This document shows positions 2,284 to 18,612 of a stretch of DNA of 20,978 bases, piece after piece. Source of the DNA: a virus; IMG/VR virus record IMGVR_UViG_3300030430_004844, positions 1 through 20,978 of that record. The stretch is one strand, 5' to 3'. Positions within the stretch are counted from its first letter, which is position 1, and every line of letters starts with the position of its first letter. The translations under genes were made by a program, and so were the position numbers. The notes beneath the pieces are model-generated. The model did no database searches. It was not told the DNA's origin and saw only the letters and a program-made list of their open reading frames with translations.

Positions 2284-2323
2284 TTTCTCGGTATCTTCCT
2301 TTTATTTCCTTATAGCCGAGAAA
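2284..2323 (+). other. inverted repeat next to the terminator
   Basis: TTTCTCGG at 2284-2291 is the exact reverse complement of CCGAGAAA at 2316-2323, giving an 8-bp stem with a 24-base loop. The loop contains two TTCCTT runs that could instead pair with AAAGGAAA at 2321-2328, which also supplies the left end of the terminator stem. It may be an accessory 3'-end hairpin stabilising the upstream mRNA. Confidence 0.5.
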
Positions 2324-2325
2324 GG

Positions 2326-2355
2326 AAAGGGCCCCACGTGGGCCCTTTTTGTTTT
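2326..2355 (+). terminator. strong intrinsic terminator
   Basis: AAAGGGCCC (2326-2334) pairs perfectly with GGGCCCTTT (2340-2348) across a five-base loop, CACGT, and is followed by a T-rich run to 2355. The GC-rich core in an otherwise AT-rich sequence is conspicuous. It ends the rightward small-gene block just before the late promoter at 2362. The stem is symmetrical, but there is no adjacent leftward gene for it to serve. Confidence 0.92.
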
Positions 2356-2361
2356 AAACTA

Positions 2362-2369
2362 TATAAATA
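2362..2369 (+). promoter_or_regulatory. T4-type late promoter
   Basis: An exact TATAAATA lies 22 bases before the ATG at 2392, directly after the terminator. TATAAATA is the T4 late promoter -10 element, recognised by the phage sigma factor gp55 with gp33 and the sliding clamp; no -35 element is needed. The gene's ribosome binding site, AGGAGG, is at 2379-2384. Confidence 0.85.
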
Positions 2370-2391: not shown

Positions 2392-3207
2392 ATGATTGAT
2401 TTAAATAAACTAGACAAAGCGTTCTTAGCTGAAGCTCAGAAACAGTATATATTCAATCTTACTTCTCAAGATTTTGGATCTAAGACTCATAAAAAAGAAA
2501 TACAATATTTGTTTAATTCAAATATATTTCCTAAATTTGATATGAATGATGCCATTGATGGCGTACCAAGAGATGCAGAACAACTTAATAAACTCATAAG
2601 AGAATTAAAAGGATATGGTAACGCAACATTTGAAAGAATATACAAATATCCCATGACAGGAGTTGGTCCTGGAGAGATAATGCTTTATTTCTTATTAAAT
2701 GATTGTACACTTGGTGGAGGTGGTTCTGCCGGAGTTGATATTAAGATTAGAGGTAGGAACTTTGAAGTTAAGTCAGTACTAAATCCTCAAGAAGAAAATT
2801 ATTCTTTTGTAAAAGGATTTAAGATTGGTGGAACAATGAATACTTCTGCCATGGTTTCTGCGGCGTTAAGTATAAAGAATCAAGCTATGGAGGCCAAAGA
2901 CATTGATAGAAATGATGAAGCATCTGGCGTTAGTAGTAAACAGATAAAACAAATTAGAAAAAATCCTACTTGGGGAAAGATGTGGAAAGAAAAAGTTGAA
3001 GGACCCTATGGAAAGATAGCAGGAAGATATATGTCAGCAAATCCAGTTATATTCATGATTAATACCTCACCAAAACCTAAACTTGGAGAAGTAGTTCACT
3101 TTGGCGCTGTAGAACCAGAGAATGTATTTTTAGATGTTGTCACTCAAAATGTTATTAAACCAGTTGTAAGAATAAAGGGACAGAAAGGTAAGGCTCCAGC
3201 TTCATGA
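2392..3207 (+). CDS. PD-(D/E)XK nuclease-like protein with possible capsid-targeting N-terminus
   Basis: This is a 271-residue protein. A restriction-endonuclease-like core is visible: Glu95 in GPGE, then a Gly-rich loop, Asp116 in GVDIKIRGRNFEVKSV, and Glu125-x-Lys127. That is the D-x8-ExK spacing and strand-loop-strand pattern of PD-(D/E)XK enzymes, which cleave DNA with metal ions. The N-terminus MIDLNKLDKAFLAEA contains Leu12-Ala-Glu14 followed by Ala, matching the (L/I)-x-E cut site of the T4 prohead protease gp21, so the protein may be packed in the head and trimmed. It is the first gene after a late promoter, and its stop overlaps the start of the ligase-like gene (ATGA). The target is unknown; host or competitor DNA, or phage DNA processing, are possibilities. 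The fold call is moderately firm, the packaging call is inference. Confidence 0.72.
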   Translation: MIDLNKLDKAFLAEAQKQYIFNLTSQDFGSKTHKKEIQYLFNSNIFPKFDMNDAIDGVPRDAEQLNKLIRELKGYGNATFERIYKYPMTGVGPGEIMLYFLLNDCTLGGGGSAGVDIKIRGRNFEVKSVLNPQEENYSFVKGFKIGGTMNTSAMVSAALSIKNQAMEAKDIDRNDEASGVSSKQIKQIRKNPTWGKMWKEKVEGPYGKIAGRYMSANPVIFMINTSPKPKLGEVVHFGAVEPENVFLDVVTQNVIKPVVRIKGQKGKAPAS

Positions 3208-4439
3208 TCGATTTTGATGAATTTATAACTGATCTTAATGAATCTAAAAACACTCATATGACTCATATTGAGGATAGAGTCATTTATGGTGGTGTCAATG
3301 GTACTCGTGAAGCTATATTTGCTCTTAGAGATTTAAGGGATATGTTAGGTGGTGTCAAAGATGGAAGTGTCAGCGTTAAGTGGGACGGAGCGCCTGCAAT
3401 ATTTTGTGGTACTGATCCATCTGATGGAAAGTTCTTTGTGGCAAAGAAAGGTATCTTTAATAAAAATCCAAAGATATACAAAACAAATAAAGATATTGAT
3501 GATGATACCTCAGGCGCTTTGAATAAAAAAATGAAGTTAGCATTACAATACTTGCCAGATCTTGGAATTAAAGGTGTTATACAAGGAGACTTTTTATACG
3601 GTCCTGGCGATTTGTCAAAACAAAAGATAAAAGGAAAGAAGTATGTAACTTTCCATCCAAATACTATTGTCTATGCCGTTCCAGATAATACACCATCAGC
3701 TATGGAAATTAAAAGAGCTAAAATTGGAATAGTATGGCACACAACTTATACAGGCAATTCGTTTGAAAGTATGAGAGCTTCATACGGTGTTGATGTTAAA
3801 AGACTTAGGAAGTCTCCAAACGTTTGGTCACAAGATGCTATGTTAAGAAACGCCATGAATGCAACTATGTCTAAAAAAGATACTGACACTGTGAATGAAT
3901 ATTTAAGTGAGATAGGACGAGTGTTTAATAGAATAGCAGGATCCACATTGAGACAACTTGAAGCTAACAAAGACTTAGCCCAACACATTGAACAACATTC
4001 AAATACTTTCGTAAGAGCTGGGCAAATACCACCAAATCCAAAGAGAAGAGTTGCGGCTCTAATAAGATTTATTAATACCAAGTATAAAAAAGAAATTGCT
4101 TCAAGAAAAACTGAAAAAGGAAAAGCTGGACAACAGAAAAAACTTGATGCTTTATTAGATTTCTTTTCACCACGCAATAGATCAAGTCTAGAACAAATGT
4201 TTGACCTACAAAGACTTATTGTTCTTGTAAAATTAAAACTTATAAATATACTAAATCGTCTTAATAAATTAGATACTTTTGTTAAGACAAGAAATGGATT
4301 TAAAACAACAGGGCAAGAAGGCTACGTAGCAATAGACAGACTTGGTGGTGATGCGGTAAAGATTGTTGATAGATTAGAATTTTCATACAACAACTTTTCG
4401 CCTAATGTATTAAAAGGATGGGACAAAGCCGGGAGATAA
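3204..4439 (+). CDS. KxDG adenylyltransferase / RNA-ligase-like protein
   Basis: This 411-residue protein has the signatures of the covalent nucleotidyltransferase (DNA/RNA ligase) superfamily. Motif I is Lys59-Trp-Asp-Gly62 in SVSVKWDGAPAIF, with Lys59 the expected AMP-accepting residue. A motif III-like segment is IQGDFLYG (about 127-133, Asp in place of the usual Glu), motif IV is Glu372-Gly-Tyr-Val375, and motif V is Val385-Lys386 in AVKIVDR. A long, mostly helical insert (about 200-360) separates III from IV, unusual for a minimal ligase. The N-terminus MIDFDEFITDLNES has an L-N-E site and resembles the neighbouring head-targeting sequences. It is translationally coupled to the nuclease-like gene. 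It could seal RNA or DNA, or be a repurposed AMP-transferring cargo; the substrate cannot be deduced. Confidence 0.72.
   Translation: MIDFDEFITDLNESKNTHMTHIEDRVIYGGVNGTREAIFALRDLRDMLGGVKDGSVSVKWDGAPAIFCGTDPSDGKFFVAKKGIFNKNPKIYKTNKDIDDDTSGALNKKMKLALQYLPDLGIKGVIQGDFLYGPGDLSKQKIKGKKYVTFHPNTIVYAVPDNTPSAMEIKRAKIGIVWHTTYTGNSFESMRASYGVDVKRLRKSPNVWSQDAMLRNAMNATMSKKDTDTVNEYLSEIGRVFNRIAGSTLRQLEANKDLAQHIEQHSNTFVRAGQIPPNPKRRVAALIRFINTKYKKEIASRKTEKGKAGQQKKLDALLDFFSPRNRSSLEQMFDLQRLIVLVKLKLINILNRLNKLDTFVKTRNGFKTTGQEGYVAIDRLGGDAVKIVDRLEFSYNNFSPNVLKGWDKAGR
4241..4248 (+). promoter_or_regulatory. intragenic TATAAATA, possible late start
   Basis: An exact late-promoter octamer sits inside the 3' part of the ligase-like gene, about 190 bases before the next start at 4442. 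T4-like late promoters need little beyond this octamer, so it could boost the downstream genes. Chance occurrence in AT-rich coding DNA is a serious alternative. Confidence 0.3.
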
Positions 4440-4441
4440 AA

Positions 4442-5011
4442 ATGAGTTTACCTAAGAACTTAAAACTGACTGATTTGATTCTAAAAGAACCTGTAGACTT
4501 CAAAGCTATGGGTCAAGATGATCAGATTAAATATCAAAGACATCGCAGAAGAACCAGTTATACCGGTGGAGAATCTGTTGAGTTCAGTGTTAATAACAGT
4601 AAAAGAAAAATAAATCCAGAAAACCTTACTCGAGAAGATATAAAGTTTCTTAAACAGATGTCAAAAGACGATCTGAGAGAAGCACTTACACTTATTCAAA
4701 GAATAAGACGAGGAAGGATGCTAAAAAGAATTAAATCTAAAATACAAAGAGGAGCAAGATTAGCAAGAAGAAGAGTCGCTAGTTTGGCAACCCTAACTAA
4801 AAGAGCAAGAAGAGCTGCTCGTAACCTAATCATTCAAAAAATTACAAAAGGCGTTTCAAAAGGAGATCTTCCTTTTGCACGTCGACAAGAATTAGAAAGA
4901 AGATTAGAAAAACCTGCTATTTCAAGAAGACTAGCTACAATAGCAAAGAGGTTGATACCGCAAATGAGAAAAGCCGAAGTACAAAGAAAACAAGCAGCGA
5001 GGGCAAAATAA
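4442..5011 (+). CDS. Arg/Lys-rich putative head-associated protein
   Basis: I place the start at 4442 (MSLPKNLKLTDLILKEP), which has GGGAG about 7 bases upstream and lies just after the previous stop; an in-frame ATG at 4418 overlaps the previous gene and has no such site. The product is 189 residues. The N-terminal quarter contains SYTGGESVEF; the rest is a long, highly basic helical region with repeated RR/KR runs (RRGRMLKRIKSKIQRGARLA) ending RKQAARAK. It resembles basic proteins common near head genes of marine myoviruses. DNA binding in the capsid is likely from charge, but no enzyme motif is present. L-K-E at 14-16 could be a processing site. Confidence 0.75.
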   Translation: MSLPKNLKLTDLILKEPVDFKAMGQDDQIKYQRHRRRTSYTGGESVEFSVNNSKRKINPENLTREDIKFLKQMSKDDLREALTLIQRIRRGRMLKRIKSKIQRGARLARRRVASLATLTKRARRAARNLIIQKITKGVSKGDLPFARRQELERRLEKPAISRRLATIAKRLIPQMRKAEVQRKQAARAK

Positions 5012-5013
5012 TA

Positions 5014-6168
5014 ATGATAAAAGGTTTTAGTCAATTTTTAGTTGAGGAAGAAAAGAATGTTTTCTTTACGTTCGGTAGAATGAATCCACCAACGATAGGT
5101 CATGGTTTACTTGTTGACAAACTTGCTTCTATGTCTGGCCGTAACCCTTATAGAATTTATCTTTCACAATCACAAGATTCTAAAAAGAATCCTTTGTCAT
5201 ATAATGATAAAGTTAAGTTTTCTAGGAAGATGTTTCGAAAACATGCTAGATCAATAATGATGAATAAAAAAGTTAAGACTGTTATGGACGTCGGTACAGC
5301 ACTTTATGATGAAGGATTTAGAAGTATAACAATGGTAGTTGGTAGTGATAGAGTAAGAGAGTTTAAAGTATTATTAGGTAATTATAATGGTAAAAAGAGT
5401 AGACACGGATTTTATAATTTTAAAGATATTAATGTCATGTCTGCTGGCGAAAGAGATCCGGATAGTGATACAACATCAGGTGCCTCTGCAACAAAACAAA
5501 GACAAGCAGCAGCGGATAATGACTTCGTTAAATTTTCACAAGGTCTTCCAAAAGATTCTTCTAATAAAGATGCAAAGGCCTTGTTTAATGCAGTGAGAAA
5601 AGGAATGGGATTGAAAGAAGAAACAGATTTTAGAAACAACGTAAAACTTGATTCTGTATCTGAAATTAGAGAAAAATTTGTCAATGAAAAAATTTACAAT
5701 GTTGGCGATCAAGTAGTAATTAAAGAAACAGATGAAGTTGCAACAATATCTCACAGAGGATCAAACTATGTGATATTAGAAAAGAGCGATAATACTATAG
5801 TTCGTAAATGGATAGATGCTATTGAAGCATTAGATGCAAAAGAAATACAAGCGATAGGATGGAATAACTACAAAAAAGATAGCAAAAAGAGTATGTATCC
5901 CGACTATCCAGACAGAGGAACTGATGCATCCGCAATGAAGGCTATGAGTATTACACCAGGACAAGCAATGGCGACAATAATGCCAGGAAAAAAATTAAAC
6001 TTTAAAAAGTTTACTGAAGTTCAAGATCCTGTTAAGTTAGCCAAAGATAGAGCGGCAAGAAGAAGTGCAGTCGCTGATAGGAGAAAAGCTGCCGTTGATA
6101 GAAGAAATGATGCTGCTATTGACAGAGCAATAATGGTAAAAGCAAGAATGAAGACAAGGAATAATTAA
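5014..6168 (+). CDS. HxGH-type nucleotidyltransferase fused to a beta module and a basic tail
   Basis: This is a 384-residue protein. Residues 1-11, MIKGFSQFLVE, form a capsid-targeting-like start with an L-V-E site. Residues 15-200 form a cytidylyltransferase-like domain: GRMNPPTIGH (21-30, the T-x-G-H form seen in phosphopantetheine adenylyltransferase), TMVVGSDRVREF (about 106-117) and SATKQR (158-163), equivalent to the ISxTxxR nucleotide-binding motif. Residues 227-272 (KIYNVGDQVVIKETDEVATI ... WIDAIEAL) look like a small SH3/KOW-type barrel. The tail (about 340-384) is a basic helix with repeated DRR/DRA. Enzymes with this fold transfer nucleotides to phosphorylated substrates such as NMN or choline-phosphate; the acceptor here is unknown. 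It starts three bases after the Arg-rich gene and may be delivered in the head. Confidence 0.78.
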   Translation: MIKGFSQFLVEEEKNVFFTFGRMNPPTIGHGLLVDKLASMSGRNPYRIYLSQSQDSKKNPLSYNDKVKFSRKMFRKHARSIMMNKKVKTVMDVGTALYDEGFRSITMVVGSDRVREFKVLLGNYNGKKSRHGFYNFKDINVMSAGERDPDSDTTSGASATKQRQAAADNDFVKFSQGLPKDSSNKDAKALFNAVRKGMGLKEETDFRNNVKLDSVSEIREKFVNEKIYNVGDQVVIKETDEVATISHRGSNYVILEKSDNTIVRKWIDAIEALDAKEIQAIGWNNYKKDSKKSMYPDYPDRGTDASAMKAMSITPGQAMATIMPGKKLNFKKFTEVQDPVKLAKDRAARRSAVADRRKAAVDRRNDAAIDRAIMVKARMKTRNN

Positions 6169-6179
6169 GGGAGAAAATT

Positions 6180-6989
6180 ATGTCTAAACTAAATATATTT
6201 GAGGAGTATGCAGATCTTTTTGAAGCAGAAGATATCGATCCAAAAGAATATGATTACGAAGGAGAGATGGCAAAGGACCAATTGGTAACAATGGCTGATG
6301 CTGCATCGGAACTGCATGATATGTTAGATGATACTGAAAATCTCCCAGAATGGTGTCAGAATAAAATATCAAAAGCAACAGATTATATCGATACAGTTAG
6401 AGACTATATGCTAGCAAAGAAGACTAAAGCTGGTGGAGCTGAACTTGATGATATTGAAAAAGATATGAAAGAGTATAAAGAACTGAATCCTACAAAAGCT
6501 GTTAATAAAATGGTTAATACTTTAGCTAAAAAAGTAAAGAGTATGAAAAAGAACGAAGGTAACGTTGATGAAATCTCAGTAGGAATGAGAAACAAATATT
6601 ATGATGCCGCTAAAAAATCACATGATAGAGCAGGAAATTCAGCTTTTGCCAGACATCTTAGAAAAGAACCTGGTATAGAAAAAGATTTAGATACAATGCG
6701 TAAAAGAAAAGCCGGTATAAAAATAGCTAAGAATCAAGCTATCAAAAATATCAGAAGAGAATTGTATCCAAAGAAAAAGAAAAATGAAAACGTCGATCCT
6801 ACATTAGAGCAATGGAAGCAAAAATTATCTGAATCTGTTGTTATAGAAAAATTAAAAGTTTCTGATGGAATGGGTGCATGGGTAAAGGACTTTCAAAAAA
6901 GTGATGCACCTCAATTCAAAGGAAAAGACGATAAAGAACGAAGAGATATGGCAATAGCCGCTTACTTATCAGCTAAAGAAGGGAATTAA
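6180..6989 (+). CDS. modular putative internal head protein (three modules)
   Basis: This 269-residue protein starts MSKLNIFEEYADLFEAED, in which Leu13-Phe-Glu15 followed by Ala fits the gp21 cleavage rule. Three segments follow, separated by charged linkers. Residues 23-83 (YDYEGEMAKDQL ... LPEWCQNKI ... DYIDTVRDYM) form a helical module; 128-190 (VDEISVGMRNKYYDAAKKS ... RKAGIKIAKNQAI) a second; and 224-269 (KLKVSDGMGAWVKDF, SDAPQFKGK, DMAIAAYLSAK) a third. I recognise all three as recurring modules in uncharacterised marine myovirus proteins, where they occur in varied orders. No enzyme motif is seen. GGGAG lies 5-8 bases before the ATG. The role as packaged internal protein is inferred from the N-terminus and context. 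Confidence 0.75.
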   Translation: MSKLNIFEEYADLFEAEDIDPKEYDYEGEMAKDQLVTMADAASELHDMLDDTENLPEWCQNKISKATDYIDTVRDYMLAKKTKAGGAELDDIEKDMKEYKELNPTKAVNKMVNTLAKKVKSMKKNEGNVDEISVGMRNKYYDAAKKSHDRAGNSAFARHLRKEPGIEKDLDTMRKRKAGIKIAKNQAIKNIRRELYPKKKKNENVDPTLEQWKQKLSESVVIEKLKVSDGMGAWVKDFQKSDAPQFKGKDDKERRDMAIAAYLSAKEGN

Positions 6990-6990
6990 A

Positions 6991-7188
6991 ATGATTGATA
7001 ATGAAGATAATGAAATTAATAATAAAATTTATGCAGCGTATAAACTAGCAACTCAAGGTTCAACAGTTGATCAGCAAAGAAGTGAGATTGAAGAAAAGAT
7101 CAAAGGGTTACAAGCAGAACTCGATACTTTAAATAAAGTTGAACCACCAGTAGAAGCAGCACCAGAGGAAAGTGATGAAAACATTTAA
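6991..7188 (+). CDS. small acidic coiled-coil protein
   Basis: This 65-residue acidic protein has a predicted coiled-coil stretch (SEIEEKIKGLQAELDTLNKV, about 33-52) and a Pro/Glu-rich tail (EPPVEAAPEESDENI). It contrasts in charge with its very basic neighbours and could act as an oligomerising or chaperone-like partner. It starts one base after the preceding stop, and its 3' end overlaps the next gene in another frame. The family is not recognised. Confidence 0.7.
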   Translation: MIDNEDNEINNKIYAAYKLATQGSTVDQQRSEIEEKIKGLQAELDTLNKVEPPVEAAPEESDENI

Positions 7189-7417
7189 ATCTTTTTTAGA
7201 AGGCACAGGTAAGAAAAAAGGCGAAACGTGGGAAGCCGGTTATAAGCGTAGGGTTGTAAAAACTACAAAGCCTGAGCACAAAGATAAAGGTTACAATTGG
7301 AGAATCAAGGGTAAAGAAAGACCTGAGATTTCAATAAGGTTATACAAAGAAAAGCCATCACAGGCTCAGTTTAACAAACAAATGAGAAGGGTAGCAGGTC
7401 ATGAATTCGGAGGTTAA
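7175..7417 (+). CDS. small basic protein with capsid-targeting-like start
   Basis: I prefer the ATG at 7175, with AGAGGAA at 7164-7170 upstream, over the GTG immediately before it. The product of 80 residues begins MKTFKSFLEG, very close to the T4 internal protein start MKTYQEF. The body (KKKGETWEAGYKRRVVKTT ... YNWRIKGKERPEISIRLYKE) is basic and probably beta-rich, with a short helical end. Strictly, the residue at P3 before the Glu is Phe, not Leu/Ile, so protease cleavage is less certain than for its neighbours. It overlaps genes on both sides by a few bases. Confidence 0.72.
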   Translation: MKTFKSFLEGTGKKKGETWEAGYKRRVVKTTKPEHKDKGYNWRIKGKERPEISIRLYKEKPSQAQFNKQMRRVAGHEFGG

Positions 7418-7760
7418 AAAATTTAAGAGTTACTTAAGGATAGATGAGTATTGCGAAGAATGTAATTTATATGAGGACCTAGAGATAACTGAAGCGGAAT
7501 ATCAAGGAAAAAAAGTAACACTTAATGACCCTATTCGCGCCAATGATGGAAAGAAAAAATTTCATGTATACGTTAAAAATGAAAAAGGTAATGTAATAAA
7601 ATTAGGATTTGGCGATCCAAATATGGAAATAAAAAGAGACGACCCTGCAAGGCGTCGATCATTTAGAGCAAGGCATAACTGTGATAATCCAGGACCAAAA
7701 TGGAAAGCAAGGTACTGGTCATGTTATCAATGGAGAGCCGGTGCAAAGGTAGATAATTAA
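7401..7760 (+). CDS. putative internal head protein with internal ITE/A site
   Basis: This is a 119-residue protein. The N-terminus contains KKFKSYLRIDEY, then an acidic Cys-containing linker (YCEECNLYEDLEI), then Ile-Thr-Glu followed by AEYQGKKVTL, a near-perfect gp21-type cut site. The domain after that site (VTLNDPIRANDGKKKFHVYV, GFGDPNMEIKRDDPARRRSF, RARHNCDNPGPKWKARYWSC) is one I recognise as highly conserved in marine T4-like phages, including the RHxCDNPGPKxKARYWSC block. It may bind metal or nucleic acid through its Cys/His residues, but no function is known to me. The start overlaps the end of the preceding gene. Confidence 0.78.
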   Translation: MNSEVKKFKSYLRIDEYCEECNLYEDLEITEAEYQGKKVTLNDPIRANDGKKKFHVYVKNEKGNVIKLGFGDPNMEIKRDDPARRRSFRARHNCDNPGPKWKARYWSCYQWRAGAKVDN

Positions 7761-8119
7761 TGTTAACATTTAAAACATATATTTCAGAAGATGGTCCTTG
7801 TTGGGATAGCCACAAACAAGTTGGCATGAAGAAAAAAGGAAACCGAATGGTTCCTAACTGTGTACCAAAAGAAGAACGTGCAGATAGACAACGTGAAGAT
7901 CCAGATATTGGTGATAGAAAAGGTTCGCAACCTGCAATATATCATAAAGGAATGTCTAAATCAAAAAAGTTAGCGAGAGATAGACAATTTAAGAAACAAA
8001 CTAAATTACCATCGCACATGGCTAAGGATGCGCCAGGCGATAAAGCTGCTCGAAAGAAACCAATGCCAAAGTCTAAACATACATTGGCATATCATAGAAA
8101 GTTTGGAAACAAGAAATGA
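7760..8119 (+). CDS. basic modular protein with capsid-targeting-like start
   Basis: This 119-residue protein starts MLTFKTYISED, a clear F-K-T-Y-I-S-E targeting-like sequence with an I-S-E site. Two small modules follow. One (CWDSHKQVGMKKKGNRMVPN, then CVPKEE; about 14-37) recurs in phage structural proteins. The other (GDRKGSQPAIYHKGMSKSKK ... DAPGDKAARKKPMPKSKHTL) resembles short basic modules in marine phages and giant viruses. The protein is extremely Lys-rich, consistent with binding DNA in the head. The start shares a TAATG overlap with the preceding gene, and its stop overlaps the next start (ATGA). Confidence 0.75.
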   Translation: MLTFKTYISEDGPCWDSHKQVGMKKKGNRMVPNCVPKEERADRQREDPDIGDRKGSQPAIYHKGMSKSKKLARDRQFKKQTKLPSHMAKDAPGDKAARKKPMPKSKHTLAYHRKFGNKK

Positions 8120-10269
8120 CCATAAAAAAGAAAACTGTAGATGAGGGAACTTACAAAGTAGAGATAGAAGGTCTTCCCAAGATGTACATCGATACAGATA
8201 ATCCAGGAGAACTTAGAAGAGACCTTAGAAAGATCGTAAGAAAAGTTGATATGGTTAAAAACGTTGAAAGAGTTCAAAAGTCTGAAGTAAGAAAAGATTT
8301 GCAGTTAAAAATACAAGGAAAAGACGACATGGAAGAAAATAAGAGACCAGGATTATGGGCTAATATGCATGCGAAGAAAAAACGTGGAGAGGCACCAGCT
8401 AAAAAAGGCGATAAAGACTATCCAAGTGATGACGCTCTAAAAAGAGCTCGTGGAGAGAATGTAGATGAACTTGCAATGGGTCAAGGAGTAGAAATTAAAA
8501 AAACAGCAGTTGGAGACAGACCAAAAGGTATTGGTTGGAGTCTCAAAAAATCAGGTCAACAGACTGGAAAAGATCATGACGTCTGGCATAGAGTAACAAA
8601 GCCAGTTGCACAACCAAAAATAAGAGCGGGGTCAACAATGTACAGCAGTAAGAACGAATCATTTTTCTTTGTAACAGAAGATCAAATTAAAAGAGATGGC
8701 GCAAAGATTAAGAAAGCGTATGCAGCAATAGCTACAGAAGATATGAATGTAATAACTAAACATCTTAAGAAACAAGGTATAGATCACGATCATGACAAAG
8801 GTGAATTATATGTAAGAAGACAAGATCATAGAGATGTTATGAATCATCTTAACGACTTGATGAAAAAGAAAATGATCAAGAGTAAACCTCCTGTAACTGC
8901 AGAAAAGTTAGACAAAGATGATGAACCATTTATAAAGAATTTAATAAAGAATCTTAGAAAGGGTTCAAAAACTCACGGTGGTCAGGCTGATGATTTAGAA
9001 AAGGCAATGAAAGAATCAGTAACTCAGACACCTGGTGATAGTTATCATCACTTACAAAAAGCAAAAAGACTAGCTTCAGCTGACGGCCATGATTATGATA
9101 AGCTTCCAAAGTATCACAGAGGAAAAGATGTACCTCATCAAGCTCATTACGATGATAAAGCTAAAAATGAAGCAAGAGGTGTACCCAGAAATTATACAAA
9201 GAAATTTTCAAATTTGAATTTGAAGAAAGCAAGAGAACTCATGAGCCCTGCAAAACATAGACAGGACGGTATTGATCGTATAGCAAAAGGTATGGGTATC
9301 AGTAAAGCTAGGGCAGCTAAACATCACGATGATGTTATGAAGTCTTATGGATTTAAAACTGAAGATAAAGGTCGTGGACCTACAGGAATAGCTTATTCTC
9401 TTCCAAAAGGTCATCCAGACGCAGAAAATCCTGCAACAGGAAAAAAATACCCTGAAAGACAGACTGATAAGTATAAAGCAGATTATGCAAAGAACAGTCC
9501 TCTAAAGTTAAGTGGAAAATTTGCAAAGAATGAATCTGATGACTATCACTATTCAACAGGCGAACCACTTAATAAAAAGTTATCACCTAAAGCGCAAAAA
9601 GCAAAAGATGCTCAAGCAAGAATAGACAAGAAGTTTGCACCTGGTGGAAGTTACTCAAAAGGTGCTGATCAAATTAGAAAAGTTATTGCTAAAAATGAAG
9701 CTATGGATCCAGTAACATTAGGAAAAATGCAGGCTCAAGCTGCGGCCACTCAAAGAGCGAATCAAAAGAAAAGAGATGAAAAAGAAAAAAAAGATATGGC
9801 CAAAAAAGCAACTCATGAAATGGTAACACGTAGAGGCAAGCCGATATTTCAACCAAAGCCGGGTGATTCACCTGAAAGAACTGCAATGATCAAGTCAACT
9901 CAAGCTAGTTTACAAAAAAGAAAAGACAGACTAGCAAAAGCAAAAAAAGACAGGGCAGCTGCTTATAAGGCAGGTAAACCATTTGATATGGTAAGAGCAC
10001 TAGGTTATGGTAAATCAGTAGAAGCAAATGAAGAAAAAAAGAAGAAGAAAGGTCTTGCCGCAAAAGCTGAAAAGTCTGGAATGCCACTTGGTATATTAAG
10101 GCAAGTATACAATAGAGGAATGGCTGCGTGGAAAACTGGTCATAGGCCTGGAACCACACCTCAGCAATGGGCAATGGCTAGAGTAAATTCATTCGTAACA
10201 AAATCCTCAGGTACTTGGGGTAAAGCCGATAAAGATTTGGCCGCTAAAGTAAGAGCAGCTAAAAAATAA
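8116..10269 (+). CDS. giant Lys-rich modular protein, putative head cargo
   Basis: This 717-residue, very basic protein is built as beads on a string. Residues 1-70 form a compact domain (GTYKVEIEGLPKMYIDTDNP). Residues 79-103 (GLWANMHAKKKRGEAPAKKG and following) match a short module common in marine phage proteins. Residues 210-250 carry a GIDHDHDKGELYVRRQDH module that recurs in the protein at 10590. Linkers repeatedly contain K-N-E or similar (AKNEAR, AKNESD, AKNEAM, EANEEK). The last 75 residues (LGILRQVYNRGMAAWKTGHR ... TTPQQWAMARVNSF ... WGKADKDLAAK) resemble what I remember as DUF5824. No enzyme motif is evident. It begins in the stop of the preceding gene (ATGA) and is followed by a late promoter. 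It may be a processed polyprotein or a DNA-condensing internal protein; both are inference. Confidence 0.75.
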   Translation: MTIKKKTVDEGTYKVEIEGLPKMYIDTDNPGELRRDLRKIVRKVDMVKNVERVQKSEVRKDLQLKIQGKDDMEENKRPGLWANMHAKKKRGEAPAKKGDKDYPSDDALKRARGENVDELAMGQGVEIKKTAVGDRPKGIGWSLKKSGQQTGKDHDVWHRVTKPVAQPKIRAGSTMYSSKNESFFFVTEDQIKRDGAKIKKAYAAIATEDMNVITKHLKKQGIDHDHDKGELYVRRQDHRDVMNHLNDLMKKKMIKSKPPVTAEKLDKDDEPFIKNLIKNLRKGSKTHGGQADDLEKAMKESVTQTPGDSYHHLQKAKRLASADGHDYDKLPKYHRGKDVPHQAHYDDKAKNEARGVPRNYTKKFSNLNLKKARELMSPAKHRQDGIDRIAKGMGISKARAAKHHDDVMKSYGFKTEDKGRGPTGIAYSLPKGHPDAENPATGKKYPERQTDKYKADYAKNSPLKLSGKFAKNESDDYHYSTGEPLNKKLSPKAQKAKDAQARIDKKFAPGGSYSKGADQIRKVIAKNEAMDPVTLGKMQAQAAATQRANQKKRDEKEKKDMAKKATHEMVTRRGKPIFQPKPGDSPERTAMIKSTQASLQKRKDRLAKAKKDRAAAYKAGKPFDMVRALGYGKSVEANEEKKKKKGLAAKAEKSGMPLGILRQVYNRGMAAWKTGHRPGTTPQQWAMARVNSFVTKSSGTWGKADKDLAAKVRAAKK

Positions 10270-10270
10270 C

Positions 10271-10278
10271 TATAAATA
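10271..10278 (+). promoter_or_regulatory. T4-type late promoter
   Basis: An exact TATAAATA lies in the 32-base gap between two genes, 23 bases before the ATG at 10302, a spacing almost identical to that of the promoter at 2362. It would start the second late transcription unit. Confidence 0.85.
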
Positions 10279-10301
10279 GTAACTAGTAAAAAGGTATTAA
10301 C

Positions 10302-10577
10302 ATGGAAGTTTTAGGACAACGACTAGATCGTATAGAAGATAAATTAGATAAGTTGGCAGACGCTATGGTCGCAATGGCACGTGCAGAAGAAAAGTTAGAG
10401 GCTCTACAGAACGAGCATAACAAGATGTATGAACGTGTCAATCGTTTGTCCGCAAAACTTGATGATATCGAAAGTGGAGTTCAAGAGAATTCTAAGACCG
10501 TTCAGGTCATCAACAAACTATTCTGGGTCGCTATTGTTGCGGCTTCTGGCGCTATAGCCGCAAACATTTGGATGTAA
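10302..10577 (+). CDS. XhlA-like coiled-coil protein with C-terminal membrane helix
   Basis: This is a 91-residue protein. Residues 3-70 form a long amphipathic coiled coil (LGQRLDRIEDKLDKLADAMV ... EKLEALQNEHNKM). Residues 72-91 (LFWVAIVAASGAIAANIWM) form one membrane helix at the C-terminus. This architecture matches XhlA-type haemolysin/holin-accessory proteins, which sit at the inner membrane during lysis. It has its own late promoter, so it may be expressed strongly. A structural role, for example in tail or head assembly at the membrane, is a possible alternative. The lysis assignment is inferred from architecture. Confidence 0.7.
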   Translation: MEVLGQRLDRIEDKLDKLADAMVAMARAEEKLEALQNEHNKMYERVNRLSAKLDDIESGVQENSKTVQVINKLFWVAIVAASGAIAANIWM

Positions 10578-10589
10578 AAGGAGAAAAAA

Positions 10590-12404
10590 ATGGATCATTC
10601 TGATATAGATCACGGAAACATGACCAGCGCCTATCTTAAGGTCATTCGTGGTGAAAAACAAGAAACATTAAAAGAGATTGTTACTCCCGGAGGGGAACAA
10701 TTAGATGAAGCAAGACTCGTAACAAGAGATGGTAAGTTTATTGTCATGACTGATAACGATACCGAAGCAGCAACTTTTGAAGACAGAGAGTCAGCTTTAG
10801 AATATATTAAAAACAATAAAGAAAAGCTAATGGTACGCGATGATAAAGCCAAACCAGCCACTACCGATAAGATAGAAGCTAAAGAAGGAAAAGAAGTATT
10901 TATCGTCCCAGAAGAAATTGTTGATACAAAAGAAAGAAATGCTTTCATGGGTGCTGCTGCCGCCGCTCATAAAGCGGGTAAGTCTCATTTTAACTTTGCT
11001 GGTAAAAAACATAAAGTTACTATGAGTAAAGATACAGCGAAAGCTATTAATAACAGCGTTAAAGAAGATGCAAGAGATCATTGTCATTCAAAAGATCATG
11101 ATTGTGCCACTATAGTACATCATCCAAAATGGGGTATAGGCAAACCAATATATGAAAGCCACGCGATACCAACTGATGATGGATATGTAGCATGGTATGA
11201 TGTAGAGTTTGATCATGGAATCGAAAGAGAAGTTCCTACTAAAGATATGACAGTTTATACAACTGAAAAGCATAAGATGAATGCGGCTAAAAAAGTAAAA
11301 GAGGAAATGAAATGTGGTCCTGGGCAGTACTATTGTAAGTCTTCAGGTACGTGTAAGCCGATTCCAGATGGCATGAAGGTAGATGATAATGGAGATCTTG
11401 TGAAGGAAGCTGTAAAATATCCTCATGCAATGTATGATCCAAAGACTGGAGAAAAGGTTATGGCTAAAACTCCAGCTGATCATAACAAGTACGATAAAAT
11501 GGGATACACTCATGAAAAGCCAAAGATTGATGAAAACAATCCTGCTCATTTTGCCGCTATAGCAAAAGCTAATGCTAAAAGAGATAAAGAAATGGGTAGA
11601 TCACCTACACCTAATATGAATGATCCTAAGTTTAAGATGACAAAAAGGGATGGAACCAAAGATCGTATGAATCCTACAGGAGCTTTAACTGGTTATCGAT
11701 CAAAAATAGAATCTGCAAATCCAATGTCTAAGTTAACACCAACTCAAAGACAAGCTCTTTCAAGAATGAAAGTTAAGAAGAAGGGTGATGTAACTTTACC
11801 AGGTATGGATCTTTTAAAGAAAACTGAAAAACCGAAGATGAAACCTGGAAGACAGAGTCAGATAGTAAAGTATGAAGGATATGAAGCTGATGTATCAAAG
11901 TTCATGAATAAGCACGGAATTGATCATCATTGGTCTGGTGGTAAACTACACGTGGATAAAAAAGATCATGCTCGTGCAGATAAGAAACTAGAGAAAAAAT
12001 ATGGTGGTTATGGACCACGTGGTGCAAAGATGAAACCACAGCTACACATCAATAAGGAGTCAACCTCGGTTACAAGATCAAACTGGCTAGAAAAGTTTTA
12101 TGAAAAAAGAAATAGCATGAATGAAGACTATAAACAATCTCCACATGCTGGTAGTGATGATACAAAAGATTCTTTCGCAAAACAATTATCTACTAGGAAA
12201 GGCGAGGAAGCATTTGTAAAGGCTCACGAAATTCAAACTCCTGAGTACGCTGATGGTCCAACCGTTAATATCAAGACATTTAAAGCTATGACAGCAGGTG
12301 TCAATGGTCCTAAGTACAGATCAAATGATAATAGCCAAGGAGATAAAACACCAGTTGAACCTGTTAATGTAGGAAAAGCTGGGCAAGTAGGAGCAAAGGA
12401 TTAA
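10590..12404 (+). CDS. second giant modular protein, putative head cargo
   Basis: This 604-residue protein has Leu38-Asp-Glu40 followed by Ala, a gp21-type site, before a compact domain (ARLVTRDGKFIVMTDNDTEA, 41-85). A helical module follows (VFIVPEEIVD ... HFNFAGKKHKVT, 103-158). Next come a probable His/Cys-containing beta domain (DHCHSKDHDC ... YVAWYDVEFDHGIEREVPT, 163-218), a short Cys-rich module (Cys242, Cys249, Cys255), an MYDPKTGEKVMAKTPADHNK segment (281-300) and a GIDHHWSGGKLHVDKKDH module (443-460) shared with the protein at 8116. I recognise several of these as recurrent in marine myovirus proteins. No catalytic motif is seen. GGAG lies 8-11 bases upstream of the start. The packaging role is inference. 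Confidence 0.75.
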   Translation: MDHSDIDHGNMTSAYLKVIRGEKQETLKEIVTPGGEQLDEARLVTRDGKFIVMTDNDTEAATFEDRESALEYIKNNKEKLMVRDDKAKPATTDKIEAKEGKEVFIVPEEIVDTKERNAFMGAAAAAHKAGKSHFNFAGKKHKVTMSKDTAKAINNSVKEDARDHCHSKDHDCATIVHHPKWGIGKPIYESHAIPTDDGYVAWYDVEFDHGIEREVPTKDMTVYTTEKHKMNAAKKVKEEMKCGPGQYYCKSSGTCKPIPDGMKVDDNGDLVKEAVKYPHAMYDPKTGEKVMAKTPADHNKYDKMGYTHEKPKIDENNPAHFAAIAKANAKRDKEMGRSPTPNMNDPKFKMTKRDGTKDRMNPTGALTGYRSKIESANPMSKLTPTQRQALSRMKVKKKGDVTLPGMDLLKKTEKPKMKPGRQSQIVKYEGYEADVSKFMNKHGIDHHWSGGKLHVDKKDHARADKKLEKKYGGYGPRGAKMKPQLHINKESTSVTRSNWLEKFYEKRNSMNEDYKQSPHAGSDDTKDSFAKQLSTRKGEEAFVKAHEIQTPEYADGPTVNIKTFKAMTAGVNGPKYRSNDNSQGDKTPVEPVNVGKAGQVGAKD

Positions 12405-12408
12405 TACT

Positions 12409-12849
12409 ATGAAAAAATTTAAAGCTTTTTTAGAGGAAGAACTTAATTCATATATGGCGACCACTAAAACAATGCAAGGCGTAGTTCATGCTAGAGATGA
12501 AGATCATGCAAGAGAGATCATGAGAAAGAAACATGGTGCTAAAGGAGATATTAGTTTAAGGTTAAAAGGACCTGTAAGTAAAACTCAAAGAGTAGCTCAT
12601 GGTGCAAGACCGAGGCGTGAAGGCACTGAAGTTAAAGAAATATCAAAGAAGACAGTAGGTAGTTATATTAAGAAAAGAGTTTATGATGTTGGCTCTGCCG
12701 CTGGTAGAATGACAGGAGATTACGGAATAGGTCCTGAAGAAAAGAAAAAAAATAGATCTAAAGCTGTTAGTCAATATGTGAAATATCAAAAAGGCACTAA
12801 TAGAGCTGTAGATAAATTAACAGGAAAGGCTAGAGTTCCTGCAACTTAA
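12409..12849 (+). CDS. putative internal head protein with capsid-targeting-like start
   Basis: This 146-residue protein starts MKKFKAFLEEEL, with L-E-E as a possible cut site. Residues 15-60 form a small alpha/beta segment (MQGVVHARDEDHAREIMRKK). Residues 77-146 carry a module starting EISKKTVGSYIKKR and ending GTNRAVDKLTGKARVPA. The module has the same beginning (EIS) and ending style (R/K-x-x-G-x-x-x-A-x-x-K) as the middle module of the protein at 6180, suggesting shared cargo domains. Basic composition. It starts five bases after the previous stop. Confidence 0.72.
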   Translation: MKKFKAFLEEELNSYMATTKTMQGVVHARDEDHAREIMRKKHGAKGDISLRLKGPVSKTQRVAHGARPRREGTEVKEISKKTVGSYIKKRVYDVGSAAGRMTGDYGIGPEEKKKNRSKAVSQYVKYQKGTNRAVDKLTGKARVPAT

Positions 12850-12863
12850 TTAGTACATTTATT

Positions 12864-13232
12864 ATGCAATTATTTGATAAGTTAACTGAAGACAATCTTT
12901 TGTTATATGCCGCAAAGCAGTATTACAACCCGACTTGTATAGATCCTGAAGAATTTTATGAAGATCTAAATCGGTTTAAGTATATTAAAAGATTAGTCAA
13001 CAAGTATTTAGAAACTGGTAAGATATCAGAAAGATTGATATTGAATCATATGATAACAGTTTTTAATGCCTTTGATATAAAACCAACTCTAAAAATATTA
13101 GAGTTTAAATTTGATGGAAGACAGTGGGAGGTTTTAAAACCTTTCTTAGTGTTTTTAAAACATATAAAGAATGATGAGTATGTTGAAATAAAAATGGATA
13201 AACACGTAATAGAACAACTGAGGAAGATTTAA
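12864..13232 (+). CDS. conserved T4-like phage protein of unknown function
   Basis: This 122-residue protein begins MQLFDKLTEDNLLLYAAKQY, with YNPTCIDPEEFYEDLNRFKY and a hydrophobic core around LILNHMITVFNAFDI. I recognise it as closely resembling a strongly conserved cyanophage/pelagiphage protein that normally has a partner like the next gene. It is all-helical in appearance and lacks the Lys-rich bias of the cargo proteins. The first residues include L-T-E followed by D, but given the conserved hydrophobic context this may simply be part of the fold. Function unknown; the next gene starts after a one-base gap. Confidence 0.75.
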   Translation: MQLFDKLTEDNLLLYAAKQYYNPTCIDPEEFYEDLNRFKYIKRLVNKYLETGKISERLILNHMITVFNAFDIKPTLKILEFKFDGRQWEVLKPFLVFLKHIKNDEYVEIKMDKHVIEQLRKI

Positions 13233-13233
13233 A

Positions 13234-13815
13234 ATGGGAATGATTAAAAGAGCAGCGGATCTTGTATATACTTTTAGATTCTTAACTTTATTAGTTACTC
13301 CATTTGAAAAGACCGAAGCTTTTAAATTAGGTTTGCTTGACGCAAAAGGAAAGAAACTTAAGAAAGCAAAAACCGCTGAAGAAAAAAACGCATACACACC
13401 TTTTCACAGATTAGTATTCAATATTAAGAGACTGATGGAAAAAGTTCCAGGTGGTTCTTCTTCTGTTGCCTCATATGCTGCAGCATTGTATCTCATCAAA
13501 GAACAAAATGGTTTAAAAGAAAAAGATATAAAACAAATCGTTGAAAAGTCTGGATTTGAAACTTATGATTTCTTAGCAGAAAAAAGCGATTGGTTTATTT
13601 TAGAAGATGGAATGATATCGCCAGGAATGTATAAAGTTAAGTATAGTAAGATCGTAAATAGTACATACGAAGAGTTAGTACAAAAAGGAGATAGAGTTAG
13701 AATACATGACAATGCATATCCAGTAGGAGAAGTATTTGGACTTCCGATATATGAAGCAACTCATGATAAATCAAATCAAAAGATTTATCTAGCATCAGAG
13801 GAGTTGTTAGCGTAA
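13234..13815 (+). CDS. conserved T4-like phage protein, partner of the preceding gene
   Basis: This 193-residue protein starts MGMIKRAADLVYTFRFLTLL. The ATG at 13234 has AGGAAG seven bases upstream; the ATG two codons later has none. Recognisable conserved blocks are FEKTEAFKLGLLD, YTPFHRLVFNIKRLMEKVPG and SSVASYAAALYLIKE. A C-terminal beta-rich part (GDRVRIHDNAYPVGEVFGLP) follows. It resembles a conserved but unnamed marine myovirus protein found beside homologues of the preceding gene. The paired conservation suggests a shared structural or assembly role, but no motif proves it. Confidence 0.75.
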   Translation: MGMIKRAADLVYTFRFLTLLVTPFEKTEAFKLGLLDAKGKKLKKAKTAEEKNAYTPFHRLVFNIKRLMEKVPGGSSSVASYAAALYLIKEQNGLKEKDIKQIVEKSGFETYDFLAEKSDWFILEDGMISPGMYKVKYSKIVNSTYEELVQKGDRVRIHDNAYPVGEVFGLPIYEATHDKSNQKIYLASEELLA

Positions 13816-14411
13816 TGGCAGATCCAAAAGTTGGAACAGGTAAAAAACCAAAGGGTTCAGATAGAAGATTATATACTGATGAGAATCCTGATGATACCGT
13901 AAGAATTAAGTTTGCTACTAATGCAGATGCAAAAGCTACAGTGGCTAAAGTAAAAAAAGTAAAAAAACCTTTTGCTCGAAAGATTCAAATATTAAATGTC
14001 GGTCAACAAAGGGCTAAAGTTATGGGTAAGAAAGCGGTAGTAAATACATTTGAAAAAGGTAAAAATCAGATAAGAGCAAAAGAAATGGCGAAGAGAGAAA
14101 AGAAGAAGGAAACAAATGAAATGTCAAATAGAACCAGAGATGGACATAATCAAAGGGCCTATGATAGACAAATAGGCCAACTTAAAAAGTTTCTCGATAG
14201 AAAGAAAAGATTATTTCCTGAAAGACCAAAAGATAAACCAACACAAAAAGAAGAAGTTCCTGGAAATGCTATTGCACGTGGAGGAGTCGACATGGCTCCA
14301 AACATGGGACCAAGATTTAAAGCTCATGATGTTACAGATAAAAGATATAAAAAAGATAAAATTCCAAGAGTACTTAGAAGATTTAAGTCATACATAACAG
14401 AGCCTCAATGA
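13815..14411 (+). CDS. basic modular protein with a targeting-like motif at its C-terminus
   Basis: This 198-residue protein begins with a module KPKGSDRRLYTDENPDDTVR ... IKFATNADAKATVAKVKKVK, which I recognise from marine phage and giant-virus proteins (SGRRLYTDExPxDTVxIKF type). A highly basic middle and a segment VPGNAIARGGVDMAPNMGPR follow. The last residues are RRFKSYITEPQ: FKSYITE is exactly the form found at the N-termini of neighbouring proteins (FKTYISE, FKTYVVE), here at the C-terminus. GAGGAG lies upstream and the start overlaps the previous stop (TAATG). The stop overlaps the next start (ATGA). Confidence 0.75.
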   Translation: MADPKVGTGKKPKGSDRRLYTDENPDDTVRIKFATNADAKATVAKVKKVKKPFARKIQILNVGQQRAKVMGKKAVVNTFEKGKNQIRAKEMAKREKKKETNEMSNRTRDGHNQRAYDRQIGQLKKFLDRKKRLFPERPKDKPTQKEEVPGNAIARGGVDMAPNMGPRFKAHDVTDKRYKKDKIPRVLRRFKSYITEPQ

Positions 14412-14869
14412 TTAAATTTAAAACATATGTAGTTGAAAAATGGAAAGATCCACACCATAGTGAAGAGCATGATGAAGTTCATACTCAACTTGGTGTACCA
14501 AAGCACGTATTTCCAGATCATGTTAATAAACAGCTCAAGCATCTTTCTAATAAATCTAATTTTGAAAAGGCAATGAAATCTGCTAAGACAACTCATATTC
14601 ATCATTCTGATAAGAACCTTCATAAGATGGGTAATACAGACGCTGCTGACAAAAGAGGAATAATGCATAATCCAGAGATTGATGATTCCAAAAGAAAAAG
14701 AGTGTCAAGTCAGTACGATAAAGCATCATCTAAAAATAAAATGACGAAACCAATAATATTACATCATAAAGCAAGTGGTCATAAACATCTATTGGCTGGA
14801 AATACCAGGTTGACACATGGTGTACAAGATAGAAAAGAAAAAGTTCCAGTCCACACAATAGAGTATTAA
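14408..14869 (+). CDS. ParB/sulfiredoxin-like protein with capsid-targeting-like start
   Basis: This 153-residue protein starts MIKFKTYVVEKW, a targeting-like sequence. The C-terminal 40 residues read KPIILHHKASGHKHLLAGNT, then RL, and finish VPVHTIEY. This matches the core of the ParB/sulfiredoxin fold: a strand, then (H/Y)-L-(L/I)-A-G-x-x-R (Gly131 to Arg134), a helix, and a final VPVxxI strand. Members bind or hydrolyse nucleotides (CTP in ParB) and some cut DNA. The His-rich middle (HHSEEHDEVH, THIHHSDKNLHKM) is unusual. It starts within the stop of the preceding gene. The fold call is moderate; the substrate is unknown. Confidence 0.68.
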   Translation: MIKFKTYVVEKWKDPHHSEEHDEVHTQLGVPKHVFPDHVNKQLKHLSNKSNFEKAMKSAKTTHIHHSDKNLHKMGNTDAADKRGIMHNPEIDDSKRKRVSSQYDKASSKNKMTKPIILHHKASGHKHLLAGNTRLTHGVQDRKEKVPVHTIEY

Positions 14870-14872
14870 ATT

Positions 14873-15304
14873 ATGGCAAGACTTTACGGTATATTATTAA
14901 TCCTTGGGATACTAGGTGTAGTTGGATACGCATGTTATTCATACTATACGTCAACACAAGAACGAATCGCAGTTCTCACATCCAACAACGCTAAATTAGA
15001 AACGGCCTTATCATCTACAAAGGTCGCTTTTGAAACATATCAAAATAACGTAAAAGATGAGATTGAAAGATTCAAAGCAGAAATCAAGAGACAACAAGAA
15101 TTAAATGATGAGTTAAACAATAACTTACAAAAAGTGAAAGCCAACAATAAAGTAATAACAGACTTGTTAGCAGAAAACGATATAATTAAAAATAGTCTTG
15201 CAGACCCGCAAGCAACAGAGGATAAAATAAATGAAGAAGTGGACTTATTTTTTGGCGCTATTAATTGTGCCTCTAATAGTAAATGCGTGCAGCAAAGCGA
15301 CTGA
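14873..15304 (+). CDS. i-spanin (Rz-like inner-membrane spanin)
   Basis: This 143-residue protein has a short N-terminal membrane anchor (residues 5-26, YGILLILGILGVVGYACYSY) followed by a long periplasmic coiled coil (about 28-120, rich in heptad Leu/Ile with KLETAL, RFKAEIKRQQELNDEL). That is the Rz/i-spanin architecture. Its 3' end overlaps by 74 bases the start of a lipoprotein gene in another frame, the typical overlapping spanin arrangement. Spanin pairs bridge and fuse inner and outer membranes in the last step of lysis, so the host is inferred to be Gram-negative. The C-terminus has a Cys pair (INCASNSKC) that may form a disulfide. Confidence 0.85.
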   Translation: MARLYGILLILGILGVVGYACYSYYTSTQERIAVLTSNNAKLETALSSTKVAFETYQNNVKDEIERFKAEIKRQQELNDELNNNLQKVKANNKVITDLLAENDIIKNSLADPQATEDKINEEVDLFFGAINCASNSKCVQQSD

Positions 15305-15617
15305 AAAAGAAATCGTAACTGTTCCTCAGGTAGTGGAGACTCCTAAGATTGATGCTCCACAAATACGTATAGTACAAAGGCCTATACCAATTGAGATGAA
15401 GAACGCAGACATTATTGTCGTAACTGAAAATAACATAGATGAAGTAATTGATAGGGTTGTTAACACTCAAGGTGAATTTGTTTTATACGCAATGACAGCT
15501 CAAAGTTTCGAATCATTAGCTTTAAACTTTGAACAAATTAAAAGATTCATAGAAGCTCAGAATCAAGTAATATTATATTATGAAAAATCTGTTATAATCG
15601 AAAAGGATTTAGAATGA
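15231..15617 (+). CDS. o-spanin (Rz1-like outer-membrane lipoprotein)
   Basis: This 128-residue protein has a lipoprotein signal: MKK, a hydrophobic stretch, then Val17-Asn-Ala-Cys20 as the lipobox. A Pro-containing segment follows (VPQVVETPKIDAPQIRIVQR), typical of o-spanins, and then a folded C-terminal part (ADIIVVTENNIDEVIDRVV ... FVLYAMTAQSFESLAL). It is longer than lambda Rz1. The 5' end lies in another frame inside the i-spanin gene. The lipid-anchored protein would sit in the outer membrane and bind the i-spanin coiled coil. The extra C-terminal domain is a feature I recall in marine myoviruses. Confidence 0.8.
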   Translation: MKKWTYFLALLIVPLIVNACSKATEKEIVTVPQVVETPKIDAPQIRIVQRPIPIEMKNADIIVVTENNIDEVIDRVVNTQGEFVLYAMTAQSFESLALNFEQIKRFIEAQNQVILYYEKSVIIEKDLE

Positions 15618-16403: not shown

Positions 16404-16920
16404 CTGTTTGATAGTTGTTGATGCATTTGATAGTTGGCCGGAAGAAGATCTTAAAAAATATCCATTTCTTGACAAAGAAACTAAATTATTTGGTCAATAT
16501 TTAAATCATACTATAAATTTAATTAGACCAAACTGTAGAATTTTTCATGCAAGGACAATTCCAGATAGGCCTCTTATGAAAGAAATCGATACCAGTCAAG
16601 ATACGATAATTGATGAAGATCAGCCTTCTATTTCGGTACTACCAAATTTTGATAATTATTATATCTGTGGATATCATCTTAGTAGATGTATCCAACACAA
16701 AGCCGATAAATTGTTTAAACAAGGAAAACCTTTTGAATCTATCAGAATAGTTCTTAATATGTCTATGATGTTTCCTGGAGATACTCTTACACAATGTTTA
16801 AGGCATCTTAAAGCTGAAAACACTTATATGTATAATCATGGAGTTGGATTTCAAAAACTTTATGATTCATTGTCCCCAGGAAATATTATTCATAGCTTTT
16901 TTGAACTAAAAAATGTATAA
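16393..16920 (+). CDS. possible isochorismatase-fold (cysteine hydrolase-like) protein
   Basis: I place the start at 16393 (MTIDCLIVVDAFDSWPEEDL), where the conserved domain begins; an in-frame ATG at 16360 would add 11 residues overlapping the previous gene. The product is about 175 residues. DCLIVVDAFDSW resembles the first strand of isochorismatase-like hydrolases, which have a catalytic Asp there. FDNYYICGYHLSRCIQHKAD resembles the later strand-G-x-x-x-x-C-V element that holds the catalytic Cys. The middle Lys of the usual triad is not obvious. The call is tentative: it may be a non-enzymatic relative. It is the last gene before the fibre promoter. Confidence 0.6.
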   Translation: MTIDCLIVVDAFDSWPEEDLKKYPFLDKETKLFGQYLNHTINLIRPNCRIFHARTIPDRPLMKEIDTSQDTIIDEDQPSISVLPNFDNYYICGYHLSRCIQHKADKLFKQGKPFESIRIVLNMSMMFPGDTLTQCLRHLKAENTYMYNHGVGFQKLYDSLSPGNIIHSFFELKNV

Positions 16921-18591: not shown

Positions 18592-18612
18592 TGAGTTTAA
18601 AAAGGTAAAGAA

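Follow-up and report, generated by a model that had tools for sequence, protein, structure and literature searches.

The internal head proteins of bacteriophage T4 form a highly diverse defence set whose members have the targeting sequence alone in common (PMC3012670). The first ten residues target these proteins to the head, with positions 4 and 7 serving targeting and positions 8 and 10 serving processing. During head processing, cleavage takes place after [LI]xE, and an aspartate at position 10 prevents processing while leaving targeting intact (PMC9026906). Staphylococcal nuclease and EcoRI have been loaded into T4 heads through the targeting peptide as engineered CTS fusions, built on IPIII or its CTS (PMC3012670, PMC9026906). 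Targeted cargo in T4-like heads is already known, and nucleases have so far been put there by engineering. T4 and KVP40 have TATAAATA as their late promoter, and the cyanophage form is NATAAATA (PMC2984593).

The window, by which the whole analysed virus record of 20,978 bases is meant, contains two intact open reading frames on the plus strand that encode a nuclease-like protein of 271 amino acids (2392..3207) and a ligase-like protein of 411 amino acids (3204..4439). The stop codon of the first gene and the start codon of the second overlap in the sequence ATGA at 3204..3207, which bears out the coupling proposed in an earlier sequence-only reading of this DNA. The pair described in that reading largely holds and is partly confirmed. 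Relatives of the nuclease, grouped here as family A, were collected by a profile scan of viral contigs with 80 loci kept. The ligase-like protein belongs to DUF6267; of the 67 family-A loci whose downstream sequence extends for 2.5 kb or more, 55 also contain a DUF6267 gene. Among 50 distinct family-A nuclease/DUF6267 pairs, 32 overlap, the overlap measuring 1 base in 18 and 4 bases in 14.

A T4-type late promoter, TATAAATA, lies on the plus strand at 2362..2369, 22 bp before the ATG of the nuclease gene. Upstream of the operon, a terminator-like element, in which a T run comes after a GC-rich inverted repeat (2322..2350, plus strand), is recognizable by inspection in the GGGCCCCACGTGGGCCCTTTTTGTTTT region; a pattern scan did not list it. 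Within the window alone, the four late-promoter matches are not significant against the 2.6 expected. Across the family, a late promoter is found within 90 bp upstream of 42 of the 52 distinct family-A nuclease genes, compared to 2.05% of background windows. The genes of other families that take the place of family A upstream of DUF6267 show the same feature within 120 bp (42 of 51). DUF6267 seems to depend on the transcript of the nuclease gene, since a late promoter of its own is rare (5 of 119 genes). At the level of sequence, these features support a nuclease-like and a ligase-like protein that are translationally coupled in a late operon and whose association is conserved.

The genes downstream of the pair include a small basic protein with 28% K+R and a weak match to PHROG 23027 (4442..5011, plus strand), located between the ligase-like gene and a gene for a cytidylyltransferase/NMNAT-like protein (5014..6168, plus strand). 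The latter has a targeting-like start, MIKGFSQFLVEEE, and matches PHROG 395 with an E value of 1.7e-64. It also matches positions 419-754 of PHROG 455, in which the cytidylyltransferase-like part is fused to DUF6267. A run of mostly basic proteins follows (6180-14869), several of them with targeting-like starts (7760, 12409, and 14408), and is probably an internal head protein cluster. Within this run, 8116-10269 carries DUF5824 and 12864-13232 carries DUF7207. Two overlapping genes for membrane-anchored and lipoprotein-like products (14873-15304 and 15231-15617) resemble an Rz/Rz1 spanin pair. Three fibre-like genes occupy 16942-20954, two of which have the N-terminal stretch FGSAGVLSKATQAVPE in common, with a late-promoter match at 16916 ahead of the first.

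The nuclease-like protein shows the pattern E95, D116, and E125-x-K127 at the positions given in the sequence-only reading, and each of the four residues is found in all 46 of 46 distinct homologues, down to ∼20% identity. In a 42-row alignment of family A, 16 columns are invariant, and the only charged ones are those of E95, D116, E125, and K127. An AlphaFold model, built like the other structure models from alignments that left out rows from phage records, is confident (pLDDT of 89.5 and pTM of 0.86). In this model, E95 opens a helix (residues 95-101), D116 is followed by a strand (117-119), the ExK motif lies in a strand comprising residues 122-130, and a helix (152-167) and a further strand (219-223) come next. 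The predicted order of secondary-structure elements fits that expected of a PD-(D/E)XK core. A Foldseek search of the PDB gave no usable match (best E value of 1.6), and a search of viral models returned uncharacterized phage proteins only (best E value of 6e-4). In the fold search that the sequence-only reading had named as a check, a PDB match was obtained for neither protein. The nuclease is therefore termed PD-(D/E)XK-like here. Searches of Pfam, NCBIfam, and PADLOC with the window nuclease gave no match, and its PHROG match is at chance level; one family-A homologue shows a weak match to PADLOC REase_II (E=0.004). The phage-record matches are limited to six Vibrio phage records with ∼30% identity, and a pattern-based scan of 84,980 genomes found no cellular relatives. 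Judged by its conserved residues, the protein is very probably an active nuclease.

The ligase-like protein is a clear member of DUF6267 (PF19782), with an E value of 3e-102 and 343 bits (cutoff of 27) over residues 16-400, and also matches PHROG 455. At least 467 of the searched phage records, mostly of cyanophages, encode DUF6267, and the closest named DUF6267 match is Phage C48C1, a Kyanoviridae record with 65.5% identity. The motifs named in the sequence-only reading, K59-x-D61-G62, E372-G373-Y374-V375, and V385-K386, are found at their positions, and across 125 DUF6267 sequences their conservation is 98% or higher, the putative nucleotidyl-accepting lysine included. The same conservation applies to Q127-G-D129, and the only exception is the fourth-motif aromatic, which varies between Y and F. 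The active-site residues on which the earlier reading depended are therefore conserved among the homologues of both proteins. Short cyanophage DUF6267 proteins of ∼300 residues, whose helical insert between the motifs is largely missing, retain KxDG, QxD, EGxV, and the later lysine. The order and nature of these motifs are those of ligase-type nucleotidyltransferases. The structure model is weak at the C-terminal motifs IV and V (pLDDT below 50); it found no match in the PDB by Foldseek and is too poor for a judgment on the fold. Comparison with a T4 RNA ligase 2 profile, using both the single sequence and a 32-row alignment, detected no similarity, the window has no match to PF09414, and DUF6267 matched no ligase profile or fold. 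The conserved motifs nevertheless make it likely that DUF6267 is a nucleotidyltransferase of the polynucleotide-ligase type. DUF6267 is not named in the literature searched, in which coverage of subscription papers is thin, and no description of its nucleotidyltransferase motifs, targeting peptide, or nuclease partnership was found there.

A survey starting from DUF6267, for which 80 contigs were taken in, shows that the gene upstream of it is mostly not of the window's family A but belongs to one of about ten other families. At 42 of the 47 DUF6267 loci with enough upstream sequence, a member of a PD-(D/E)XK-like family lies within 1.4 kb upstream, and one more locus (L041) was added by eye as the 43rd. 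The families were first grouped by reading the D...[SE]xK pattern, and this grouping was then tested by alignment. Family B (21 sequences with a median identity of 27%) has near-invariant residues that include E87, D190, and S229-L-K231, and family J shows conserved E45, D122, and S136-L-K138. Two of the families match PADLOC models of Type II restriction enzymes: of 53 slot proteins, 7 match PDLC03459 and 3 match PDLC03438, with best E values of 7e-14 and 3e-11 for the two models. None of the slot proteins matched Pfam. Common ancestry of the window nuclease with the other slot families is not claimed, because hhalign of the window nuclease found no link to them. A restriction-like slot that changes beside a constant partner suggests that the target of the nuclease varies while the task of the ligase-like protein stays constant.

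A few loci hold other putative enzymes in the slot, assigned by reading the sequences: an ATP-grasp-like protein in L080 and a HAD-like protein in L073. By eye, the ATP-grasp-like protein near DUF6267 (L080 2031-3446) has a targeting-like start, and HAD-like and PAP2-like proteins are found near or in the slot of L073, L076, and L088. A structural-looking gene of the MAISRYMEG.. type is found in many DUF6267 loci, where it separates the nuclease-like gene from DUF6267 (L010, L011, L036, L038, and L041, among others).

The N terminus of the ligase-like protein contains a predicted T4-type capsid-targeting peptide, MIDFDEFITDLNE (3204..3242, plus strand), with a possible prohead-protease site, L-N-E|S, after residue 13. 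Its sequence, MIDFDEFITDLNES, shows F4, F7, and I8 and carries D10 in place of E10, with LNE|S as a possible alternative site. Of 106 distinct DUF6267 N termini, 80 fit the pattern [FYL]..[FYH][IL].E; the first aromatic is residue 4 in 49 of them and residue 3 in 28. A strict pattern is matched by 71% of the N termini compared to 0.1% of shuffled sequences, and a loose one by 87% compared to 2.4%. As a control, a T4 IPII query matched the T4 records, in which a propeptide of ten residues is annotated. Of 7 related records tested for the T4-type prohead protease (PF03420), 4 have it, namely the four largest, C48C1 among them. The peptide is not found in all branches of DUF6267. The 80 contigs of the cyanophage-type clade (L203-L282) all start with MSKNT or MAKNT and lack it, and targeting has therefore been gained or lost within the family. 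Because many cyanophage copies have no such peptide, packaging of DUF6267 cannot be universal.

The sequence-only reading had assigned targeting-like starts to both proteins of the window, which is upheld for the ligase-like protein by its fit to the T4 rule and fails for the nuclease. In the window nuclease, MIDLNKLDKAFLAEAQ marks the conserved beginning of the domain and aligns with ...VADLDTEFLKRAQ in homologues, which have an additional peptide of the MQRFRSFIKEMA type ahead of it. Since, moreover, the 'LAE' of the window nuclease aligns onto 'LKR' in the peptide-bearing relatives and no in-frame start exists upstream, the 'MID' common to both window proteins is coincidental, and a shared targeting start is ruled out by the homologue alignment. 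In the 50 distinct family-A pairs, the peptide is found on both proteins in 29 and on the ligase-like protein alone in 19, and the window pair belongs to the second group. Two further contigs (L100 4962-5765 and L123 4436-5239) encode a family-A nuclease with a targeting peptide and have no DUF6267 within reach; here, the nuclease gene sits 3' of homologues of the window genes 12864-13232 and 13234-13815.

Published virion data cover several members of this gene cluster. Two adjoining gene products of S-SCSM1, the family-B nuclease-like SSCSM1_90 and the NMNAT-like SSCSM1_91, are annotated as virion proteins, in agreement with the mass spectrometry of its authors (PMC9602691). SSCSM1_90 has no obvious targeting peptide, and DUF6267 is absent between the two genes. 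In S-SZBM1 virions, the cytidylyltransferase _140 was detected, but neither DUF6267 (_141) nor the product of the upstream gene (_142) was (PMC9146016); the DUF6267 protein of this phage (L090 5478-6671) starts with MAKNTH and lacks a targeting peptide. T4-GC190, the cytidylyltransferase orthologue, is present in S-SM1 virions (PMC3037559), and an orthologue was also found in S-CREM2 virions (PMC10665884). The authors of such studies caution that highly expressed proteins may survive CsCl purification (PMC10665884, PMC9602691). The virion data searched yielded no detection of DUF6267. Packaging is thus supported for the cluster neighbours and one slot nuclease and predicted for DUF6267. The targeting peptide makes it probable that the ligase-like protein of the window is packaged, and for the window nuclease the case for packaging is nearly balanced, leaning slightly to the negative.

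The best explanation of the whole is proposed tentatively, at somewhat less than an even chance: the locus would encode a variable restriction-like nuclease and a conserved ligase-like partner as injected head cargo. The two genes would form a late unit of a marine T4-like phage, composed of a PD-(D/E)XK endonuclease from an exchangeable set and the DUF6267 nucleotidyltransferase. The ligase-like protein would enter the prohead core by means of its targeting peptide, be trimmed by the prohead protease, and be injected with the genome. In many relatives, the nuclease would be loaded alongside by its own targeting peptide, and in the window phage it may be loaded by binding to its cotranslated partner. 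Late expression together with targeting peptides would place the action early in the next infection and not in the producing cell. In the new cell, the nuclease would cut unprotected DNA, such as the host chromosome, a plasmid, or a rival phage, and the ligase-like protein would protect or repair broken strands of the incoming genome. We infer here both catalytic activities, packaging in the window phage, complex formation, the target, and the benefit. The weakest step is the purpose; attack on non-self DNA is possible and somewhat doubtful. A stronger form of the proposal appears rather unlikely. In this form, the capsid-targeted ligase-like protein and interchangeable restriction-type nucleases of different specificities would make up a natural polymorphic head weapon of marine T4-like phages. 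The nucleases injected with the genome would destroy host or rival DNA, while self-DNA would be protected or resealed.

Among the alternatives, a late role of the pair in the infected cell, with the phage's own DNA as its substrate, survives best, and it is unlikely. Here, the nuclease would trim or debranch concatemers and the ligase-like protein would seal them before or during packaging, with the targeting peptide merely concentrating the latter at the prohead. The late promoter, the motifs of a DNA-end type, the T4-type head pathway, and the position of the pair in a cluster of late, virion-linked genes are all consistent with such processing. A common housekeeping step is, however, a poor fit for many unrelated slot families, some of them like Type II restriction enzymes, and many of the nucleases bear targeting peptides themselves.

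Two further readings are less probable still, and equally so. In one, the ligase-like protein would be an injected RNA ligase that repairs RNA, such as tRNA, after its breakage by host defences, with NAD+ supplied or restored by the NMNAT-like neighbour and with the nuclease as a separate counter-defence protein. T4 RNA ligase 2 has the EGYV of motif IV as well (AEGYVLKP), the nearby NMNAT-like protein is a virion protein in relatives, and a counter-defence cargo role is known for T4 internal proteins (PMC3012670). DUF6267 nevertheless has no profile similarity to Rnl2 or PF09414, its partners include DNA-restriction-like enzymes, and neither an RNA kinase nor a phosphatase was recognized among them. 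In the other reading, the adjacency reflects a conserved gene order in T4-like marine phages, and the two products would be independent cargo proteins with separate roles. This would accommodate the unrelated ATP-grasp-like (L080) and HAD-like (L073) enzymes in the slot, the S-SCSM1 nuclease that precedes the NMNAT-like gene without DUF6267, and the nuclease located elsewhere in L100-type contigs. The overlaps of 1 or 4 bases that 32 of the 50 distinct pairs show and the rarity of a separate late promoter for the ligase-like gene (5 of 119) argue against it. Finally, it is very improbable that both are catalytically dead internal head proteins binding packaged DNA, since the SxK in place of (D/E)xK in many slot families and the wealth of basic putative head proteins in the cluster are set against a complete E-D-ExK in 46 of 46 family-A sequences and a nucleotidyl-accepting lysine kept in at least 98% of DUF6267.

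For the preferred reading, a variable nuclease and a constant ligase-like partner carried in the head, several known systems offer partial parallels. The window ligase-like protein is a clear member of the group described as DUF6267, PHROG 455, or T4-GC 71. Its motifs follow one another as in T4 RNA ligase 2 and other polynucleotide ligases: a motif I of the KxDG type, EGYV, and then a motif with a lysine. It differs from these ligases in the long predicted helical stretch (∼224-353) between motifs III and IV, in the D that replaces E in the putative motif III, and in showing no detectable profile similarity. Type II restriction endonucleases (PADLOC REase_II) share the E/D/[ES]xK pattern with the slot proteins, 10 of 53 of which match the two stronger models; family A of the window has no match. 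No DNA methyltransferase is recognized in the window.

If the preferred reading is true, a marine phage gene cluster that is widespread and contains DUF6267 would gain a function. Such cargo would also mean that phages naturally deliver nucleases by the capsid-targeting route and that a large supply of uncharacterized candidate restriction-like enzymes and targeting peptides exists. The literature searched, with subscription papers thinly covered, describes neither natural capsid-targeted nucleases nor a coupled exchangeable nuclease/ligase-like cargo. The engineered T4 CTS-nuclease fusions are laboratory constructs, whereas a nuclease cargo of the window type would be natural. By analogy, the closest precedent for the proposed cargo is the set of T4 internal head proteins (IPI, IPII, IPIII, and Alt). 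Like DUF6267, they combine an N-terminal peptide, with aromatics at 4 and 7, I8, and E10, with variable cargo, and the large relatives of the window phage likewise have a T4-type prohead protease. The functions known among them are those of an inhibitor and of an ADP-ribosyltransferase, with no nuclease/ligase-like pair among the ones reviewed, and the window ligase-like protein departs from their pattern in the D at position 10, which is followed by an alternative LNE site.
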